NCBI GenBank assembly: GCA_937920635.1 | Contig: CAKZUE010000017.1 | Location: 1 to 64,000 of the forward strand | DNA: 64,000 nucleotides | Direction: 5' to 3' | Source: an uncultured Bryobacteraceae bacterium | Lineage (GTDB): Bacteria > Acidobacteriota > Terriglobia > Bryobacterales > Bryobacteraceae | Part shown: positions 20,182 to 31,237 of the stretch, one piece after another | How positions within the stretch are numbered: position 1 is the first letter of the stretch | Layout: every line of letters begins with the position of its first letter | Position numbers and translations under genes: made by a program | The notes under the pieces: model-generated | The model's input: the letters and a program-made list of their open reading frames with translations, nothing else | Database searches by the model: none | What the model was told of the DNA's origin: nothing

Positions 20182-21141
20182 CTATTCGTTGAACAGCCCC
20201 TCGAACAGCGCCGTCGTCAGGTAGCGCTCGCCGGAATCGGGCAACACCACGACGATCGTCTTGCCCTCCATCTCCGGCTCTTTCGCCACCCGCACCGCTA
20301 CTGCCGCCGCAGCGCCGCACGAGATGCCGGCCAGGATCCCTTCCTCCCGCGCCAGCCGCCGCGCCATCTCCATCGCCTCTTCGTTGGTCACCTGCTCGAC
20401 GCGGTCCACCACCGACAGATCCAGCGTGCCGGGAATGAAGCCCGCGCCGATGCCCTGGATCTTGTGCGGTCCGGGCTGCAACGGCTCGCCCTTGATCGTC
20501 TGCGTGATCACCGGGCTCGCCGCCGGCTCCACGGCGATCGACACGATCGGCTTGCCCTTGGCCTGCTTGATGTAGCGCGTCACACCGGTGATCGTGCCGC
20601 CCGTGCCCACGCCCGAGACAAACACGTCAATGCCGCCATCGGTGTCTTCCCAGATCTCCGGTCCTGTCGTCTCGTAATGGATCTTCGGGTTGGCCGGGTT
20701 CTCAAACTGCTGCAACAGCACGTAGCGCTCCGGGTCGGAGGCGGCGATCTCCTGCGCCTTGGCCACCGCGCCCTTCATGCCCTTGGCGCCTTCCGTCAGC
20801 ACCAGCTTTGCCCCGAATACCTTCAGCACCTTGCGCCGCTCGATCGACATCGTCTCCGGCATCGTCAGCGTGATCGGATAACCGCGCGCCGCGGCTACGA
20901 ACGCCAGCGCGATGCCCGTGTTTCCCGAAGTCGGCTCCACCAGCTCTTTGCCGGGCTTCAACACGCCCCGCTGCTCGGCGTCCCAGATCATCGACGCCCC
21001 GATCCGGCATTTCACCGAATAAGCCGGGTTGCGCCCTTCGATCTTGGCCAGCACCGTCGCCTTCGCCCCGTCCGTCACCCGGTTCAGCTTCACCAGCGGC
21101 GTCCGCCCGATGCTCAAAGAATTGTCCGCGTATACTCTCAT
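20182..21141 (-). CDS. cysK: Cysteine synthase A (O-acetylserine sulfhydrylase)
   Basis: PLP enzyme that makes cysteine from O-acetylserine and sulfide. 319 residues, the usual CysK length. The PLP lysine is K44 in NPAYSVKCR, the substrate loop is [10 protein letters not shown], and the phosphate-binding glycines are [10 protein letters not shown]. The final residues lack the long CysM features. It follows a CymR-like Rrf2 regulator by 30 bp on the same strand, and the palindrome at 21615-21632 would control both. CysK can also act as a regulatory partner of CymR in Firmicutes, which makes this pairing notable. Confidence 0.96.
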
Positions 21142-21171: not shown

Positions 21172-21609
21172 TCAAATCTCCCAGTTTGGAACAAAGCTCG
21201 CCTGCCTTTCCCGCCACTCGCGCACGAGATCGGCGAACGTCGTCCGGTCAATGATCTCCGCCACCGCCGCGTCCACGCGTTCCCAGAAAAAGTCCAGCGC
21301 CCCGCCGGACTCGAGCGTCGCCCGCCCGGTGCGCCCGCCTTCCACGCTCCGGATCACCTCCCCCACCGTGATCAGCTCCGCCGCACGCCCCAACAGGTAG
21401 CCGCCTTCCGCCCCGCGCTTCGATTCCAGAAACCCGCTCCTCTTCAGCTCGGCCAGAATCGACTCCAGGAACTTCTGCGGAATGCCCTGCCGCTCCGCGA
21501 TATCGGCGATCCGCGTCGGCTCGCTCCCCGACCGTAGCGCCAGCTCGAACACAGCCCGCAGCGCGTATTCGCACTTCACGGAGACGTTCATCAAGGTGGT
21601 CGATGCCAT
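21172..21609 (-). CDS. Rrf2-family regulator, CymR-like, no FeS cysteines
   Basis: 145 residues from the ATG at 21609 (weak AGG before it); the ATG at 21591 gives a more canonical N-terminus NVSVKCEYALRAVFELAL and is an alternative. The winged helix contains IADIAERQGIPQKFLESILAEL and the wing RGAEGGYLLGR. The three cysteines that hold the cluster in IscR/NsrR are absent; instead the C-terminal half (FWERVDAAVAEIIDRTTFADL) resembles CymR, the Bacillus/Staphylococcus cysteine-metabolism repressor. It lies 30 bp upstream of cysK, so probably represses the two-gene unit from the palindrome at 21615-21632. Confidence 0.88.
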   Translation of the reverse strand: MASTTLMNVSVKCEYALRAVFELALRSGSEPTRIADIAERQGIPQKFLESILAELKRSGFLESKRGAEGGYLLGRAAELITVGEVIRSVEGGRTGRATLESGGALDFFWERVDAAVAEIIDRTTFADLVREWRERQASFVPNWEI

Positions 21610-21614
21610 GTACC

Positions 21615-21632
21615 TATTCTCTGTAGAGAATA
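21615..21632 (-). promoter_or_regulatory. Perfect inverted repeat, probable Rrf2 operator
   Basis: Arms TATTCTCT and AGAGAATA (8 bp, perfect) are separated by 2 bp. It is AT-rich in a GC-rich genome, lies just before the Rrf2 start, and overlaps the -10 region of the promoter at 21630-21656, so a bound repressor would block transcription of the regulator and cysK. Confidence 0.7.
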
Positions 21633-21656
21633 ATACATACAACTGGCGTGCGTCAA
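21630..21656 (-). promoter_or_regulatory. Promoter of the Rrf2-cysK unit
   Basis: On the minus strand, TTGACG (21651-21656) is followed by TATTAT (21630-21635) with a 15-bp spacer, slightly short; a TATTCT overlapping it gives an 18-bp spacer. Either -10 overlaps the palindrome at 21615-21632. Confidence 0.55.
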
Positions 21657-24901: not shown

Positions 24902-24968
24902 GTGCTGTAACACGGGGAGCGGCAGGGCCGCCCTAAAAAAGGGATAGGCTTTGGACAGGAGGTTCGGG

Positions 24969-26057
24969 ATGAGATTCGACAGAAGGGCTTTTCTGGGGGC
25001 CATGGCGGCGGCGCAGGCGCGCGCGGCGGGGCAGGAGCGCAAACTCGGCATACCGGGACCGTTCCCCGGGCGCGTGGTGGCCGTCGAGCACCCGGCGAGC
25101 ATCGTGGAGGGCGCCTACCAGCGCGAGCCGGTGCGCGAGATGATGCGCCGCGGCATGATGGAGCTCACCGGCGCTCCCTCCTGGCAGGACGCCTGGCGCG
25201 TCTTCTTCGAGCCGGGCGACGTGGTGATCATCAAGGTCAACCCTGTGGGCCAGCCTTACATCATCTCTTCCGCTGAAGTGTTCCAGGAGATTGTCGCCGG
25301 GCTGGAGGCGGCTGGCGTGAAGCGCGGCGACATCTTCGCTTACGACCGCTACCAGAGCGAGTTCCTCAGCGGCGGCTTCCAGAAATGGCTCCCCGAGGGC
25401 GTCCGCTGGAGTTGCGCCACGGTCAAGTACGACAAGCTTCAGCTCGACATGGACGGCTACGACCGCGACCAGTTCATCGAACTGCCGCTCGTGGGCCGGG
25501 GCCACGACCCGCGCGACCCCCACCACCGCCGCTCCTACGTGGCCAAACTCCTGTCGCAGACCGCCAACAAAGCGGTCAACCTCGGCGTGCTGAAGCACCA
25601 CCAGAGCGCGGGCATCACCATTGCGCTCAAGAACCTCAGCCACGGCTTCGTCAACAACGTCGCCCGCAGCCACGTCAGCCGCACCAACAATGCTTGCGGC
25701 ATGTTCATTCCGGCCGTGGTCGACCATCCCATCTTCCGGCAGAAGGTCGTGCTCAACATCATCGATGGCATCAAGGGCGCCTACCACGGCGGTCCGGCGC
25801 GCCGCACCGCGAAGTATCTGTGGGAGCACAAGACCCTTTACTTCGGCACCGATCCGGTGGCGCTGGACCGCATCGGCTGGAACGTGCTCGACATGAAGCG
25901 CGGCCAGATGGGCATGGCGCCCATCGCGCTTGCTGCCGACGACCAGGACAGCAATTTCATCCGCATGCAGCCCGAACACGTCGAACTGGCCTCCATGCTC
26001 GGCCTCGGCGTGGCGGACGAAGCCCGGATCGACCTCCGGCAGATCCGGCTCACCTAA
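24969..26057 (+). CDS. DUF362-domain protein, Tat-type leader
   Basis: 362 residues. The ATG at 24969 follows a near-perfect AGGAGG six bases upstream; an earlier TTG at 24951 is unlikely. The N-terminus FDRRAFLGAMAAAQARA has a twin-arginine-like leader, as often seen in Acidobacteria. The rest is a DUF362 domain (GDVVIIKVNPVGQP near residue 80, then LKNLSHGFVNNV and the end of the domain around IDGIKGAYHGGP). DUF362 proteins often sit near iron-sulfur functions, and this one precedes the isc operon by 94 bp, but it lacks the 4Fe-4S ferredoxin motif and is probably transcribed separately. Function not known. Confidence 0.88.
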   Translation: MRFDRRAFLGAMAAAQARAAGQERKLGIPGPFPGRVVAVEHPASIVEGAYQREPVREMMRRGMMELTGAPSWQDAWRVFFEPGDVVIIKVNPVGQPYIISSAEVFQEIVAGLEAAGVKRGDIFAYDRYQSEFLSGGFQKWLPEGVRWSCATVKYDKLQLDMDGYDRDQFIELPLVGRGHDPRDPHHRRSYVAKLLSQTANKAVNLGVLKHHQSAGITIALKNLSHGFVNNVARSHVSRTNNACGMFIPAVVDHPIFRQKVVLNIIDGIKGAYHGGPARRTAKYLWEHKTLYFGTDPVALDRIGWNVLDMKRGQMGMAPIALAADDQDSNFIRMQPEHVELASMLGLGVADEARIDLRQIRLT

Positions 26058-26086: not shown

Positions 26087-26115
26087 TTGACCAATTTGGT
26101 CCGTGATGGTACAGT
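26087..26115 (+). promoter_or_regulatory. Promoter of the isc operon
   Basis: TTGACC (26087-26092), 17-bp spacer, TACAGT (26110-26115). Start site near 26122. Both boxes are close to the sigma70 consensus at ideal spacing. The two dyads at 26089-26101 and 26122-26138 overlap the -35 box and the start site respectively. Confidence 0.75.
26089..26101 (+). promoter_or_regulatory. IscR-like dyad overlapping the -35 box
   Basis: GACCAATTTGGTC: arms GACCA and TGGTC around ATT. It has the GAC-N7-GTC architecture of the E. coli type-1 IscR site, with compensating C and G in place of T and A. Confidence 0.55.
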
Positions 26116-26121
26116 AGGAAG

Positions 26122-26138
26122 TGGACTAATTCAGTCCA
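26122..26138 (+). promoter_or_regulatory. IscR type-1-like operator at the start site
   Basis: TGGACTAATTCAGTCCA has perfect arms TGGACT/AGTCCA around 5 bp. Aligned to the 25-bp E. coli type-1 IscR consensus, I count 20 agreements over 26119-26143. Its location at the predicted start site fits repression by holo-IscR. Confidence 0.65.
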
Positions 26139-26151
26139 GGATTCGCCACTC

Positions 26152-26616
26152 ATGCTCAAGCTGACCAAGAAGGCCGACTACGGGCTCATCAGCCTGAAGC
26201 ACATCGCCATGTTCGGCAAGGAGCGGCCGGCGAGCACCAAGGAGATGGCGGAAGCCTACGGGATTCCCGCGCCCATCCTGTCGAAGGTGCTCCAGCGGCT
26301 GGTGCGCGAAGGTTTTCTGTTGAGCGAGCAAGGGGTCAACGGGGGGTACCGGCTGGCGCGGGACCCGTCGCTGATCACGGCGCTGGAGGTGATCCGCGCC
26401 ATCGATGGCCCCGTGTTGCTGACCAACTGTTTCAGCCGCCACGGCGAGTGCGAAATCTCAGACAACTGCAACGTGCGCGAGCCGTTGCGGAAGGTGCATG
26501 AGCGAATCCAGGGCGTGCTGGAGAGCATCACCATAGCAGACCTGAGCGAGGACACGCCGCCGGGGGGAGCTGGGGCAGGGCGGCGCGGGGGCGGGTTGAC
26601 GGTCATATCCGGTTAA
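26152..26616 (+). CDS. iscR: Rrf2-family iron-sulfur regulator IscR
   Basis: FeS-sensing repressor of its own operon, 154 residues. The winged helix is in LTKKADYGLISLKHIAMF and GIPAPILSKVLQRL, with wing GVNGGYRLAR. Cluster-ligand cysteines occur in NCFSRHGECEISDNC, spaced C-x6-C-x5-C, close to the C-x5-C-x5-C of E. coli IscR. The C-terminus is a glycine-rich tail. It heads the isc operon, 21 bp before iscS, and two IscR-like dyads flank its promoter, supporting autoregulation. SufR-like naming is an alternative within the same family. Confidence 0.9.
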   Translation: MLKLTKKADYGLISLKHIAMFGKERPASTKEMAEAYGIPAPILSKVLQRLVREGFLLSEQGVNGGYRLARDPSLITALEVIRAIDGPVLLTNCFSRHGECEISDNCNVREPLRKVHERIQGVLESITIADLSEDTPPGGAGAGRRGGGLTVISG

Positions 26617-26637
26617 GGGCAGGAGAAAAGAACGGCC

Positions 26638-27855
26638 ATGCTGAAATTCCCGATTTATCTCGATTATCACGCGACGACGCCGATGGACGAGCGCGTGCTG
26701 GAAGCGATGTTGCCGTATTTCCGCGAGCACTTCGGCAACGCCGCAAGCCGCAATCACAGCTTCGGCTGGGCAGCCGAAGAGGCGGTGGAGAAGGCGCGCA
26801 AGCAGATTGCTTCGCTGATCAACGCGACGCCGAAAGAGATCGTCTTCACCAGCGGCGCCACCGAGTCGAACAACCTGGCCATCAAGGGCGTGGCGGAGAT
26901 GTATGCCGAGAAAGGCAACCACATCATCACCGCCGCCACCGAGCACAAGGCGGTGCTGGACACCTGCAAGCGGCTGGAGAAGCGGGGCTGCCGGGTGACT
27001 TACCTGCCGGTGCGCGCCGACGGGCTGATCGACCTCGATCAATTGCGCGATTCGATCACGGACAAGACGATTCTCGTGTCGATCATGTACGGCAACAACG
27101 AGATCGGCACGGTGCAGGACATCCGCGCCATCGGGCAGATCTGCCATGAGAAGGGCGTGTTGTTCCACACCGACGCCACGCAGGCGGTGGGCAAGATCCC
27201 GGTGGACGTGATCGCCGACAACATCGATCTGCTGTCCTGCACGGCGCACAAGATGTACGGACCGAAGGGCGTGGGCGCGCTCTTTGTGCGGCGCAAGAAC
27301 CCGCGCGTGCAGCTCACCGCGCAGATGGACGGCGGCGGGCACGAGCGCGGGATGCGGTCGGGCACGCTGAACGTGCCGGGCATCGTGGGCTTCGGCAAGG
27401 CGGCGGAGCTGTGCCAGCAACTGATGCCGGAAGAGATGCCGCGCATCCGGGAGATGCGCGACCGGCTGAAGGACAGCATTCTTGCGCAGCTCGACGAGGT
27501 CTACATCAACGGTACGATGGAGCGGCGCCTGCCGCACAACCTGAACATGAGCTTCGCCTATGTGGAGGGCGAGAGCCTGCTGATGGGCATCAACGACATC
27601 GCGGTGTCCTCCGGCTCCGCCTGCACGTCGGCGACGCTGGAGCCGAGCTACGTGCTCAAGGCGCTGGGCGCAGGCGACGATCTGGCGCATTCGTCGATCC
27701 GCTTCGGCCTCGGCCGTTTCACGACGGAGGAAGAGATCGACTACGCCATCGGCAAAGTTGTGGAAGTCGTACGGAAGCTGCGCGAGCTTTCACCGCTGTA
27801 CGAAATGGTGAAAGAGGGCGTCGACCTGACCAAGGTCGAGTGGAGCGCGCACTGA
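26638..27855 (+). CDS. iscS: Cysteine desulfurase IscS
   Basis: PLP enzyme that takes sulfur from cysteine as a persulfide and passes it to IscU. 405 residues as in group I desulfurases. The N-terminus is [17 protein letters not shown] lysine K205 lies in [11 protein letters not shown], and the persulfide-carrying cysteine is C329 in SSGSACTSA. The mobile loop length is that of IscS, not of SufS. It lies 21 bp after iscR and 55 bp before iscU. The only desulfurase in the window. Confidence 0.97.
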
Positions 27856-27910
27856 GGATAGCTGGGACAAGCGGTACAAACACCAATGCAGAAGGGGATT
27901 TGAGGAAACC

Positions 27911-28321
27911 ATGGCATACAGCGACAAGGTTCTGGACCACTACAACAATCCGCGCAACGTCGGCAGCCTGGACAAGAAGGACCCCAACGTGGGCACCGGA
28001 CTGGTCGGCGCGCCGGAATGCGGCGACGTGATGAAGCTGCAGATCAAGGTCAATCCCGAGACCGGCATCATCGAGGACGCCAAGTTCAAGACCTTCGGCT
28101 GCGGCTCGGCCATCGCCAGCTCGTCGCTTGCCACCGAGCTGATCAAGGGCAAGACGGTGGATGAGGCGATGCAGCTCAGGAACACGGTGATCGTGAACGA
28201 GCTGAGCCTGCCGCCGGTGAAGATCCACTGCTCGGTTCTCGCCGAGGACGCCATCAAGGCGGCGATCGAGGATTACAAGAAGAAGGCGGGCGTGCCCGCC
28301 GGCGCCGCGCAGACGGCGTAA
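27911..28321 (+). CDS. iscU: Iron-sulfur scaffold protein IscU
   Basis: Scaffold on which new clusters are built from IscS sulfur. 136 residues. All three ligand cysteines are present: C37 in APECGD (Asp beside it), C64 in FGCGSA and C107 in IHCSVL. The HscA recognition motif LPPVK is at 100-104, matching the presence of hscA and hscB in the same operon. 55 bp downstream of iscS and 73 bp upstream of iscA. Confidence 0.97.
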   Translation: MAYSDKVLDHYNNPRNVGSLDKKDPNVGTGLVGAPECGDVMKLQIKVNPETGIIEDAKFKTFGCGSAIASSSLATELIKGKTVDEAMQLRNTVIVNELSLPPVKIHCSVLAEDAIKAAIEDYKKKAGVPAGAAQTA

Positions 28322-28340
28322 TCTGGAATCAGGCCGCGCA

Positions 28341-28369
28341 GCGCCGCCTGCACTTGCAGCGGGCGGCGC
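28341..28369 (+). repeat. Hairpin between iscU and iscA
   Basis: Arms GCGCCGCC (28341-28348) and GGCGGCGC (28362-28369) plus an inner TGC/GCA pairing form a strong stem. There is no T-run after it, so it is not a simple terminator. It could set relative mRNA levels of the two cistrons by stabilising 5' or 3' fragments. Confidence 0.5.
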
Positions 28370-28394
28370 GAGCGGACAGTCGAGGTAGTTGTTC

Positions 28395-28724
28395 ATGCCT
28401 GAAGTTCATGTGACCCGCAAAGCCGTGCAGAAAATCCGCGAGGCGTTCGCCAAGCAGGGCGTCAGCGGGGGAGGACTGCGGCTCGGGGTGCAGGGCGGCG
28501 GCTGCTCGGGGCTCAGTTATCTTTTCCGCTACGACCCCAAACCGCGCCCCTCGGACCATGTCTTCCGCTTCGAAGACGTGGAGGTCTACGTCGATCCGAA
28601 GAGCATGATCTTCCTCGACGGCATGACGCTCGACTACAAGGAATCTCTCATGCACTCGGGCTTCGCGTTTGAAAATCCGCACGCGACCAAAAGCTGCGGG
28701 TGCGGAACCTCGTTTTCCGCCTGA
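28395..28724 (+). CDS. iscA: A-type iron-sulfur carrier IscA
   Basis: HesB/IscA family carrier, 109 residues from the ATG at 28395 (GAGGT eight bases upstream; a TTG six bases earlier is less likely). The three conserved cysteines are in GGGCSG and at the C-terminal SCGCG. It probably delivers 4Fe-4S clusters. The stop TGA (28722-28724) overlaps the ATG of hscB by one base. Confidence 0.95.
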   Translation: MPEVHVTRKAVQKIREAFAKQGVSGGGLRLGVQGGGCSGLSYLFRYDPKPRPSDHVFRFEDVEVYVDPKSMIFLDGMTLDYKESLMHSGFAFENPHATKSCGCGTSFSA

Positions 28725-29362
28725 TGGCACACCTGCACGACTGCTGGCATTGCGGGGCGAAGGACGCGGCATCGCTGTTCTGCCGCTACTGCAATACCAT
28801 CCAGGCGCCGACGCCCGACTACTTCGAGTTTTTTGACATGCCGCGGCGGCTGGCGGTGAATGCCGAGGATCTGAAAGGGCGGTTCTACACGCTCAGCCGC
28901 CTGCTGCACCCGGACCGTTACACGCGGCGCTCGGAACAGGAGCGGCGTTTTTCGCTGGAAGCCTCTTCCATCCTCAACGACGCCTACCGCGTGTTGAAGG
29001 ATCCGATCCAGCGCGCTGAATATGTGTTGCGGCAGGAGGGGTTCACCGTCGGCGACCAGCGGAACAAGGACGTGCCGCCGGAGCTGCTCGAAGAGGTCTT
29101 CGAGCTGAACATGGCGCTGGACGAGTTGCGCGGCGGCGATCTGGAAGTGCTGCCGCAGCTCGAGGTCATGCGGCGCGATTTCCTTGAGATGCTGGCGGCC
29201 ATCGACCGCGAGCTGGAGGCGATGTTCGCCCGCCACGACGCCGCGCCGCCGGAGAGCCGCAAGCAGGTTCTCGGCGAGATCCGTTCCGCTCTCAACCGCC
29301 GCCGCTACATCAGCAATCTGGTCCAGGAAGTGGACAAGCAACTGACGGCGCGCAACGCGTAA
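28724..29362 (+). CDS. hscB: Fe-S co-chaperone HscB with tetracysteine N-terminus
   Basis: J-domain protein that brings IscU to HscA. 212 residues from the ATG at 28724, coupled to the iscA stop by a TGATG junction. The J-domain holds LLHPDRY (HPD motif, about residue 63-65) and the C-terminal three-helix bundle for IscU follows. Residues 1-30 are unusual: C7-x2-C10 and C20-x2-C23 in CWHCG and FCRYC, followed by IQAP. E. coli HscB lacks this; human HSCB has a similar tetracysteine metal-binding module. It sits 21 bp before hscA. Confidence 0.94.
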   Translation: MAHLHDCWHCGAKDAASLFCRYCNTIQAPTPDYFEFFDMPRRLAVNAEDLKGRFYTLSRLLHPDRYTRRSEQERRFSLEASSILNDAYRVLKDPIQRAEYVLRQEGFTVGDQRNKDVPPELLEEVFELNMALDELRGGDLEVLPQLEVMRRDFLEMLAAIDRELEAMFARHDAAPPESRKQVLGEIRSALNRRRYISNLVQEVDKQLTARNA

Positions 29363-29383
29363 GCGCGCCATCCGGACCCTGTC

Positions 29384-31237
29384 ATGAGCACTTTTCAGAT
29401 CGATTTTTCCACGGTGCAGAAGCGCCGCATCATCGGCATCGACCTCGGCACCACGAACTCGCTGGCCGCGTTCATGGACCTGACCGGTCCGGAGATCATA
29501 CCGGGGGCCGACGGCAGCCGCATGGTGCCGAGCATCGTGAGCCTGGCCGATGACGGCACGTTCGTGGTGGGCGAGGCGGCGCGGCGGCTGCTGATCGACG
29601 CGCCGCAGCGCACCGTCTACTCCGTCAAACGCCTGATGGGGCGCGGCCGCGAGGATGTGGCCGAAGAGCTGAGGCTGTTTCCCTTCCGCATCGCCGAGGG
29701 CAGCGAGCAGGTGATCCGCCTGGCGCTCGGCGAGCGGCTGTTCACGCCGCCCGAGATTTCGGCGCAGATCCTGAAGGAGCTGAAGCGGCGCGCCGAGCAG
29801 TATCTGGGCGAGGAGATCACACAGGCAGTGATCACCGTGCCCGCCTACTTCAACGACGCGCAGCGGCAGGCCACGCGCGACGCCGGGCGCATCGCGGGCC
29901 TCGAGGTGTTGCGGCTGGTGAACGAGCCCACGGCCGCGTCGCTCGCCTATGGCCTCGACAAGCGCAAGGAGGGCATCGTCGCGGTGTACGATCTCGGCGG
30001 CGGCACGTTCGACATCTCGATCCTGCGCCTGCACGAGGGCATCTTCGAAGTCCTGGCCACCAATGGCGACACGCATCTGGGCGGCGACGACATCGACAAC
30101 CGCCTGCTGGCCATCGCGCTCGAGGACATGGCCAGCGAGTGGGGCGAAGACCTCTCGCACAACGGCGAGGCGGTGCAGACGGTGCGGCAGGCGGTGATCC
30201 GCGCCAAGGAAGAACTCTCCTTCCAGCCCGCCACGGTGATCGACATTGATTACCGCGGCCGCCGCTACCAGCGCGAACTGAAGCGCGAGCTGTTCGAGAA
30301 CCTGATCCGCGACATCGTCGACCGCACGCTGGGGCCCTGCCGCCAGGCGATGCGCGACGCCGGGCTCGAACCGGAGCAGATCGACGAAGTGGTGCTGGTG
30401 GGCGGCTCGACGCGCATCCCGATGGTGCGCCGCGCGGTGGAGGCGCTGTTCAAGGCCAAGCCCCACAGCGAGCTGAACCCGGACGAGGTAGTCGCACTCG
30501 GGGCGGCGGTGCAGGCGGCGATCCTTTCCGGGGACGTGCAGGACAAGCTGCTGCTCGACGTCACGCCGCTGTCGCTCGGCATCGAGACCATGGGCGGCGT
30601 GGTGAGCAAGCTGATCCACCGCAACTCGACCATCCCGGCTTCGGCCACGGAGGTCTTCACCACGTCGGTGGACGGGCAGCGCAACGTGCTGATCCACGTG
30701 GTGCAGGGCGAGCGCGAACTGGCGAAGGACTGCCGGTCGCTGGCGCGGTTCGACCTGAAAGACATCGAGCCGATGCCCGCCGGCATGGCGCGCATCGAGG
30801 TGCGGTTCCTGATCGACGCCAACGGCATCCTCAACGTCACCGCCCGCGACCTGCGCAGCGGCAAGGAGCAGAGCATTGAGGTGAAGCCGAGCTACGGGCT
30901 CACCGAGGAGCAGGTGGAGGCGATGATCCGCGAGTCGTACGAAAAGGCGGAGGAAGACCTGATCGAGCGGCAGGTGCGCGAGGCGCGGGTCGAAGCGGAC
31001 AATATTCTTGCCGCCGTCGAGAAGGCGCGCATGAGCGATGCGTGGCTGGATCTCACCGACGAGGAGCGCGCCGCCGTGGACGCGGCGCTGAATGAGCTTC
31101 AGGTGGTGTACCACGCGAGCGACCACCATCTGATCCGCGCGGCGATCGAGAAGCTGGACGCGGCCACGCGGCGGCTGGCCGAAAACATGATGAACACGGC
31201 CGTACGCCAGGCGCTGAAGGGAACCCGAATCGAGTAG
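29384..31237 (+). CDS. hscA: Fe-S chaperone HscA (Hsp70 family)
   Basis: ATP-driven chaperone that assists cluster release from IscU. 617 residues, Hsp70 architecture: nucleotide-binding domain starting [16 protein letters not shown] (15-30), [12 protein letters not shown]-type phosphate loop (here [11 protein letters not shown]), [12 protein letters not shown] hinge motif, then a substrate-binding domain from about residue 385 ([16 protein letters not shown]). The C-terminal lid is shorter than in DnaK, as for HscA. LPPVK in the neighbouring IscU is its known target in E. coli. Confidence 0.95.

Follow-up and report, generated by a model that had tools for sequence, protein, structure and literature searches.

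The closest described counterpart of the regulator considered here is RisR of Myxococcus xanthus (MXAN_1152), which is placed in Rrf2 group IS6, a group described as including Acidobacteria and as mixing ISC- and SUF-linked members (PMC9973013). According to the same description, holo-RisR represses isc and suf, isc increases about 15-fold when risR is deleted, and mutation of the three cysteines abolishes repression, with the same effect as the deletion; the footprinted operator reads T(t/g)GAC-N7-GTCC(t/a) and is flanked by A/T-rich sequence, and the wing arginine Arg59 is said to be retained by RisR and by most Rrf2 proteins (PMC9973013). A review describes the fourth cluster ligand of RisR as unknown and itself proposes a non-protein ligand (PMC11138216), and in the open-access literature searched RisR appears as a studied protein in one organism only. 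For Streptomyces NsrR, an aspartate is reported to ligate the [4Fe-4S] cluster across the dimer, and Glu43 is considered to prevent E. coli apo-IscR from binding type-1 sites (both PMC5411485). Searches of the open-access literature gave no title on the regulon of the isc-linked Rrf2 regulator in Acidobacteriota.

Such a regulator gene heads an isc operon in the window, the 64-kb stretch of Bryobacteraceae DNA analysed here, from a genome of 4.15 Mb. The operon occupies positions 26152-31237 of the forward strand in the order regulator-iscS-iscU-iscA-hscB-hscA, comprising the RisR-like Rrf2-family regulator (26152-26616), iscS (26638-27855; TIGR02006, 657.7 bits), iscU (27911-28321; TIGR01999, 224.2 bits), an A-type carrier gene, iscA (28395-28724; TIGR00049, 119.1 bits), hscB (28727-29362; TIGR00714, 52.5 bits) and hscA (29384-31237; TIGR01991, 757.7 bits). 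All of these scores are over the cut-offs of their models, and the iscA product scores 95.9 bits against TIGR02011 IscA, under the cut-off of that model. Directly upstream of the isc promoter lies a DUF362 gene (24951-26057, forward strand), a relative of which occupies the same place in two of the three other genus members with 1500 bp of upstream sequence. A second Rrf2 gene of the window (21172-21642, reverse strand) stands directly upstream of cysK (20182-21141) on the same strand; its closest specific model is CymR, at 88.4 bits against a cut-off of 195, and it looks like a regulator of cysteine metabolism.

An earlier, sequence-only reading of this DNA had placed upstream of the operon a sigma70 promoter at ideal spacing, with a GAC-N7-GTC dyad over the -35 element and a second dyad at the start site that matched the E. 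coli type-1 IscR consensus at 20 of 25 positions by hand count, and each of these statements was borne out. A consensus scan gives a sigma70-like promoter at 26087-26115 on the forward strand, with a -35 hexamer TTGACC (26087-26092), a spacer of 17 and a -10 hexamer TACAGT preceded by TG (26110-26115), matching the consensus at 9 of 12 positions. TTGACC-17-TACAGT is the only promoter-like match on either strand between 25000 and 31000, and because shuffles yield a mean of 0.5 such matches (sd 0.7) it could, taken alone, be due to chance. The distal operator, site 1 (GACCAATTTGGTC, 26089-26101, no strand assigned), is a perfect 13-bp palindrome overlapping the -35 hexamer, and the proximal operator, site 2 (GACTAATTCAGTC within GGACTAATTCAGTCC, 26124-26136, likewise without strand), begins nine bases past the -10 hexamer, at the predicted transcription start and 35 bp centre to centre from site 1. 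These two sites are the sole occurrences of the pattern GACYRWWWYRGTC in the 64 kb, against a mean of 0.04 in 100 shuffles, none of which reached two occurrences; the looser GAC-N7-GTC occurs ten times in the window, and the two sites are its only pair within 60 bp. Scored against ATASYYGACTRWWWYAGTCRRSTAT, the 25-bp type-1 IscR consensus of E. coli, a string that four papers contain, site 2 reaches 20/25, in agreement with the hand count, and site 1 reaches 19/25, the top two scores in the window; with the same script, E. coli's own pair of iscR sites scores 24/25 and 22/25. No match to the full type-1 consensus with up to three mismatches was found in the window, and in this comparison the sites retain the outer A/T while their bases at -7 and +7 differ.

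Conservation of the dyads upstream in relatives, which the sequence-only reading had named beforehand as one of the observations on which it could fail, was examined in the isc operons of Acidobacteriota. The family search matched 142 of 150 genomes at 1e-15 and gave 103 strong rows (E <= 8e-41), of which 102 were used, G119 being left out; the phylum search matched 178 of 396 genomes, from which 77 loci outside the Bryobacteraceae were used, mostly the higher-scoring among the matches listed. Of the resulting 179 regulator loci, 156 are followed directly by an IscS gene whose product is 68% identical or more, and removal of two (one with a duplicate upstream region, one short) left 101 Bryobacteraceae and 53 other Acidobacteriota isc operons. 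In 92/101 and 46/53 of these, respectively, GAC-N7-GTC precedes the regulator start codon by no more than 110 bp, against means of 2.1 (maximum 6) and 1.4 (maximum 5) in dinucleotide shuffles. The outcome that would have refuted the reading was thus not observed. The next 110 bp upstream contain the dyad in only 6/97 Bryobacteraceae and 2/53 others, and two control palindromes of the same shape were found in 3/101 and 6/101 Bryobacteraceae (1.8 and 2.2 in shuffles, which reached at most 5 for either control, so that the second lies slightly above) and in 3/53 and 1/53 of the others. Chance dyads were rejected on the shuffles of the window pattern and on this conservation upstream of isc-linked regulator genes. 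The exact dyad is absent within 110 bp in 9/101 Bryobacteraceae and 7/53 others, and several of these nine Bryobacteraceae have GAT instead of GAC; by eye, the isc promoters of L097, L098, L107, L127 and L129 show GAT-N7-GTC at the same place. Among the other 23 of the 179 loci, 11 carry the dyad.

In 75 of the 93 Bryobacteraceae promoters with a dyad within 130 bp, the gene-nearest dyad lies 36-39 bp after a TTGAC (37 in the window), and in 78 of the 93 a TTGAC lies 28-50 bp before it, compared with 0.8 on average when positions are drawn at random from -250 to -130 of the same loci; this constant distance suggests that the proximal dyad probably marks the start site. Within the genus the proximal dyad is present in all five genomes and the distal site over the -35 element is intact in four, 34-35 bp from the proximal one, with one half of the distal site altered in the fifth member, L012. 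At least two dyads occur in 30/101 Bryobacteraceae and 6/53 others. Elsewhere the spacing between dyads varies from 19 to 88 bp, so that second sites seem to be gained and lost. These patterns support a role of the dyads as operators of the first gene of the isc operon in another phylum, Acidobacteriota, and the sites are conserved and in all likelihood functional. Across 106 Bryobacteraceae sites, which were picked by their GAC and GTC so that only flanks and middle count as evidence, G stands at -7 in 70% (C or T in type 1), and 82% have C or G at +7; the pairs at ±11 and ±12 are A/T-rich, in the same register as in E. coli type 1. This motif agrees with the A/T-rich flanks and the T(t/g)GAC-N7-GTCC(t/a) core of the published RisR operator; the bases beside GAC and GTC fit that operator and depart from type 1 (PMC9973013).

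The protein encoded by the first gene belongs to the Rrf2 family (PF02082, 122.4 bits against a cut-off of 30) and carries the Gx2GGx2L motif as GVNGGYRL. It reaches 62.7 bits against TIGR02010 IscR, whose cut-off is 207.55, and 67.6 bits against the NsrR model, whose cut-off is 182; its best Fe-S-specific model is the SUF system regulator TIGR02944, at 109.1 bits just short of the cut-off of 110.65. L187, a less closely related homologue from a different Acidobacteriota genome, exceeds that cut-off with 128.1 bits. Homologues of the window regulator include ones that are 90% (L005, DYJN01000035.1), 83% and 61% identical to it. Cys93, Cys100 and Cys106 are retained in 179/179 homologues, and Asp9, in place of which E. 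coli IscR has Arg, is found in 178/179, with Glu in the remaining one. Asp9 aligns with the cluster-ligand Asp of Streptomyces NsrR, and E. coli NsrR also has Asp there. In the columns of IscR His107, Ser40, Glu43 and Gln44 the window regulator has Arg, Pro, Ser and Lys, and among the 156 isc-linked homologues the His107 column is Arg or Lys in every case, Glu43 and Gln44 are absent throughout, being replaced by Ala or Ser and by an invariant Lys, respectively, and Ser40 is absent in all but one. The column of the wing arginine Arg59 holds Gln in the window regulator and Arg in 0/156 isc-linked homologues.

A true IscR carrying [2Fe-2S] and reading type-1 sites, i.e. the E. coli circuit in another phylum, would account for the type-1 scores of both sites, for the A/T pairs at ±11 and ±12 and for a gene order like that of E. 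coli iscRSUA-hscBA. Against it stand the TIGR02010 score, the lack of equivalents of His107, Ser40, Glu43 and Gln44, and the G, rather than C or T, at -7 in most sites, and a quick tree separates E. coli IscR from the 47-row group formed by the Acidobacteriota homologues (88% SH-aLRT, on long branches and not starred). IscR proper was rejected on the score and the residue columns, and this explanation appears very unlikely. The sequence-only reading had taken the first gene for an IscR-like protein with three cysteines and had proposed the FeS-dependent autoregulation known from proteobacteria; the three cysteines are confirmed, the operators are conserved in Acidobacteriota and autoregulation is very likely, but the assignment to IscR and the E. 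coli circuit are not supported; the sites had been placed correctly but under the wrong regulator.

The same quick tree, which has long branches and 10/52 inner branches starred, divides into two halves, one of 22 rows that are nearly all isc-linked and include the window regulator, and one of 22 rows of which 19 are not isc-linked and three are. Related regulators of other Acidobacteriota include L175, which precedes a sufB operon (SufB over its cut-off), and L165, which precedes a NifS/IscS-type desulfurase gene. This division agrees with the mix of ISC- and SUF-linked members published for group IS6 (PMC9973013), and the window regulator is likely to be a member of IS6, judging from sequence and from the published description of RisR with which it was compared. 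The genome encodes four Rrf2 proteins, so that the sites might instead be read by another regulator, such as one of the three others; however, the dyads go with the isc-linked regulator gene across the phylum, and a scan of the flanking sequence of the other three gave a single dyad, 762 bp upstream of the Rrf2 gene of L004. The other Rrf2 genes of the genome were rejected as readers on the basis of the quick tree and this flank scan, and a reader other than the isc-linked regulator is highly improbable.

A whole-genome count of GACYNNNNNRGTC was uninformative, with 95 sites as compared with 254 for the reversed pattern, and a 27-column motif model was used instead. This sequence-only model was trained on 45 isc sites of Bryobacteraceae, those of the genus itself among them, with the fdx sites outside the training set. 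Run on the five genus genomes at E up to 10, with 150 out of the 456-646 candidates in each genome scored, it returned 20 places, of which 15 are at the isc promoter, four upstream of fdx and one inside ORFs, at single-genome E-values that are weak (best 0.02-0.2). A stricter run (E up to 0.1; 75 candidates scored per genome) matched 37 of 101 Bryobacteraceae, with no match in the window genome at that threshold, and the resulting table, read by eye, contains 33 distinct isc promoter sites, five at fdx and eight elsewhere. These eight are not claimed as part of a regulon; they lie near the genes for FeoA and a Fur-family protein, near a hemB/DUF2249 pair and an ABC transporter gene, near two related unnamed genes, and at two places without a clear gene. 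The FeoA (L299:1485-1506), Fur-family (L300:1524-1548) and hemB/DUF2249 (L303:1520-1542) sites are single matches in other Bryobacteraceae, and a wider iron regulon is possible. The matches at L298:1516-1540 and L301:1528-1552 lie, in two genera, upstream of the two related unnamed genes, whose products are 53% identical over 264 residues and have no Pfam match.

The second gene preceded by the operator, fdx, is unlinked, lying outside the isc operon. Its product is a ferredoxin of the [2Fe-2S] type that scores best with TIGR02007, the ISC system ferredoxin model, at 91.4 of 132.1 bits and thus under the cut-off. A dyad stands just before fdx in all five genus genomes (GACCGAATTGGTC, GACCCTTTTGGTC, GACTCTTTTGGTC, GACCATTTTGGTC and GACTCTTTTAGTC); in the window genome the gene and its operator-like dyad lie outside the window at G000:C16:1080-1507, with the dyad GACCCTTTTGGTC at G000:C16:1495-1507, 35 bp before the GTG. 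Across the Bryobacteraceae, GAC-N7-GTC was found in 21 of 85 fdx upstream regions, 20 of them with the stricter form (shuffles 2.1 and 0.5), compared with one and two for the control palindromes, and was absent upstream of the remaining 64/85. In 19 of the 21, the dyad precedes the aligned start by 32-37 bp and stands, by eye, on the upstream side of a TATACT-like -10 hexamer, which in the window genome and other relatives is so near the start codon that the fdx message may be leaderless. The same operator at a second, unlinked gene of the pathway gives further support for its function. These sites also bear on whether the proximal dyad is an RNA hairpin in the leader rather than a protein site. 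In the RNA, GGACU-AAUUC-AGUCC might pair into a short stem. The distal site overlaps the -35 element and the fdx sites (by eye) lie upstream of the -10-like hexamer, so that neither would be transcribed from these promoters, and the constancy of the GAC and GTC letters weighs little because the sites were selected on them. The hairpin was rejected on the grounds that the distal and fdx sites would lie outside the transcripts, and it is barely credible as an explanation of the dyads.

ISC is the only complete Fe-S assembly machinery found in the genus. SufB over its cut-off was found in 0/5 genus genomes, compared with 12/14 control genomes, and the window genome alone gave a weak SufB match (46.5 of 346.4 bits, 75 positions). 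A check of this match showed, outside the window at G000:C10 (L191:1498-3208), a short divergent pair of a SufC-like gene (164.9 of 212.8 bits) and a SufB/SufD-like gene (best 68.6 of 650 bits, with SmsB), all under the cut-offs; no such pair was found in the other four genus genomes, and no full SUF set in any of the five.

It is likely that the regulator is a RisR-like Fe-S sensor that autoregulates isc through the two dyads, and autoregulation of the isc operon by its first gene is in itself very likely. The sequences themselves show the sites, the promoter match, the conservation, the gene order, the residues, the genome-wide preference for isc and fdx and the lack of a full SufB; binding, cluster type and repression by the holo form are what we infer. 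With an ample Fe-S supply, the regulator dimer would carry a cluster on its three cysteines and, as fourth ligand, probably Asp9 of the partner subunit, for which reason, together with the lack of His107, a [4Fe-4S] rather than a [2Fe-2S] sensor is probable. The cluster-loaded dimer would bind GGAC-N7-GTCC and repress by blocking RNA polymerase, covering the -35 element at site 1 and the start site at site 2. Upon a shortage of clusters the apo-protein would let go, and iscSUA-hscBA would rise along with the regulator. The further operator before the unlinked fdx of the genus would keep this detached gene in the same loop. A role of the holo form as the repressor is suggested by analogy with RisR.

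The sites might instead be bound by both the apo and the holo form, or mainly by the apo form, without a simple holo-repressor switch. Binding by the apo-protein is conceivable because Ala or Ser replaces Glu43 in all 156 isc-linked homologues, and E43A IscR is reported to bind a type-1 site without cluster (PMC5411485); however, RisR is also described as lacking Glu43, yet its cysteine-less variant loses repression (PMC9973013), so that the cluster must act by other means than Glu43. Binding without need of the cluster is on this evidence rather unlikely, and repression by the holo form is the preferred reading. A broader interpretation, put forward tentatively and with somewhat less than even confidence, is that in Acidobacteriota a separate Rrf2 lineage, using [4Fe-4S] with three cysteines and a cross-dimer Asp and differing from IscR in its base-reading and wing residues, may have converged on nearly the GAC-N7-GTC by which E. 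coli IscR controls ISC, and that in this genus it may control the only complete machinery plus an unlinked fdx as a minimal feedback loop.

If true, Asp9 would name the fourth cluster ligand of RisR, and a protein ligand is directly testable because the Asp is retained in nearly all homologues. By genome comparison, the RisR-type operator is extended to many Acidobacteriota, for which a usable motif is supplied, and it appears to follow fdx where fdx stands apart from the operon. The locus could further serve to study how an Rrf2 protein that bears a cluster but lacks Glu43 senses that cluster, and it raises the question of whether the operators of IscR and RisR converged or retain an ancestral one.

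Among the known systems, E. coli IscR (group IS1) is likewise encoded by the first gene of its isc operon behind two upstream dyads of the GAC-N7-GTC type, but its His107 and base-reading residues are absent in the window regulator, and the bases adjacent to GAC and GTC differ. NsrR shares with the window regulator the Asp at the position of the fourth [4Fe-4S] ligand, as reported for Streptomyces NsrR (PMC5411485), but serves nitric oxide detoxification, whereas the window regulator is linked to Fe-S assembly. The SUF system regulator model TIGR02944 gives the best Fe-S-specific match, but the window gene is linked to isc. RisR, as published (PMC9973013), is likewise an Rrf2 protein encoded beside Fe-S assembly genes, with three cysteines, without conservation of Ser40, Glu43 and Gln44 of IscR, and with an operator of GAC-N7-GTC, A/T-rich flanks and C after GTC, which in the M. 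xanthus isc promoter lies over the -10 element and start, comparable to that of the window at the predicted start. In contrast to the window gene, which heads isc, M. xanthus risR is described as heading a suf operon and controlling isc at a distance, and the cysteines of RisR (92/102/108, C-x9-C-x5-C) are spaced differently from those of the window regulator (93/100/106, C-x6-C-x5-C), which has also lost the wing Arg59 that RisR keeps (PMC9973013). Relative to this description of RisR, the window system is further distinguished by its two operators and its unlinked fdx target (PMC9973013).
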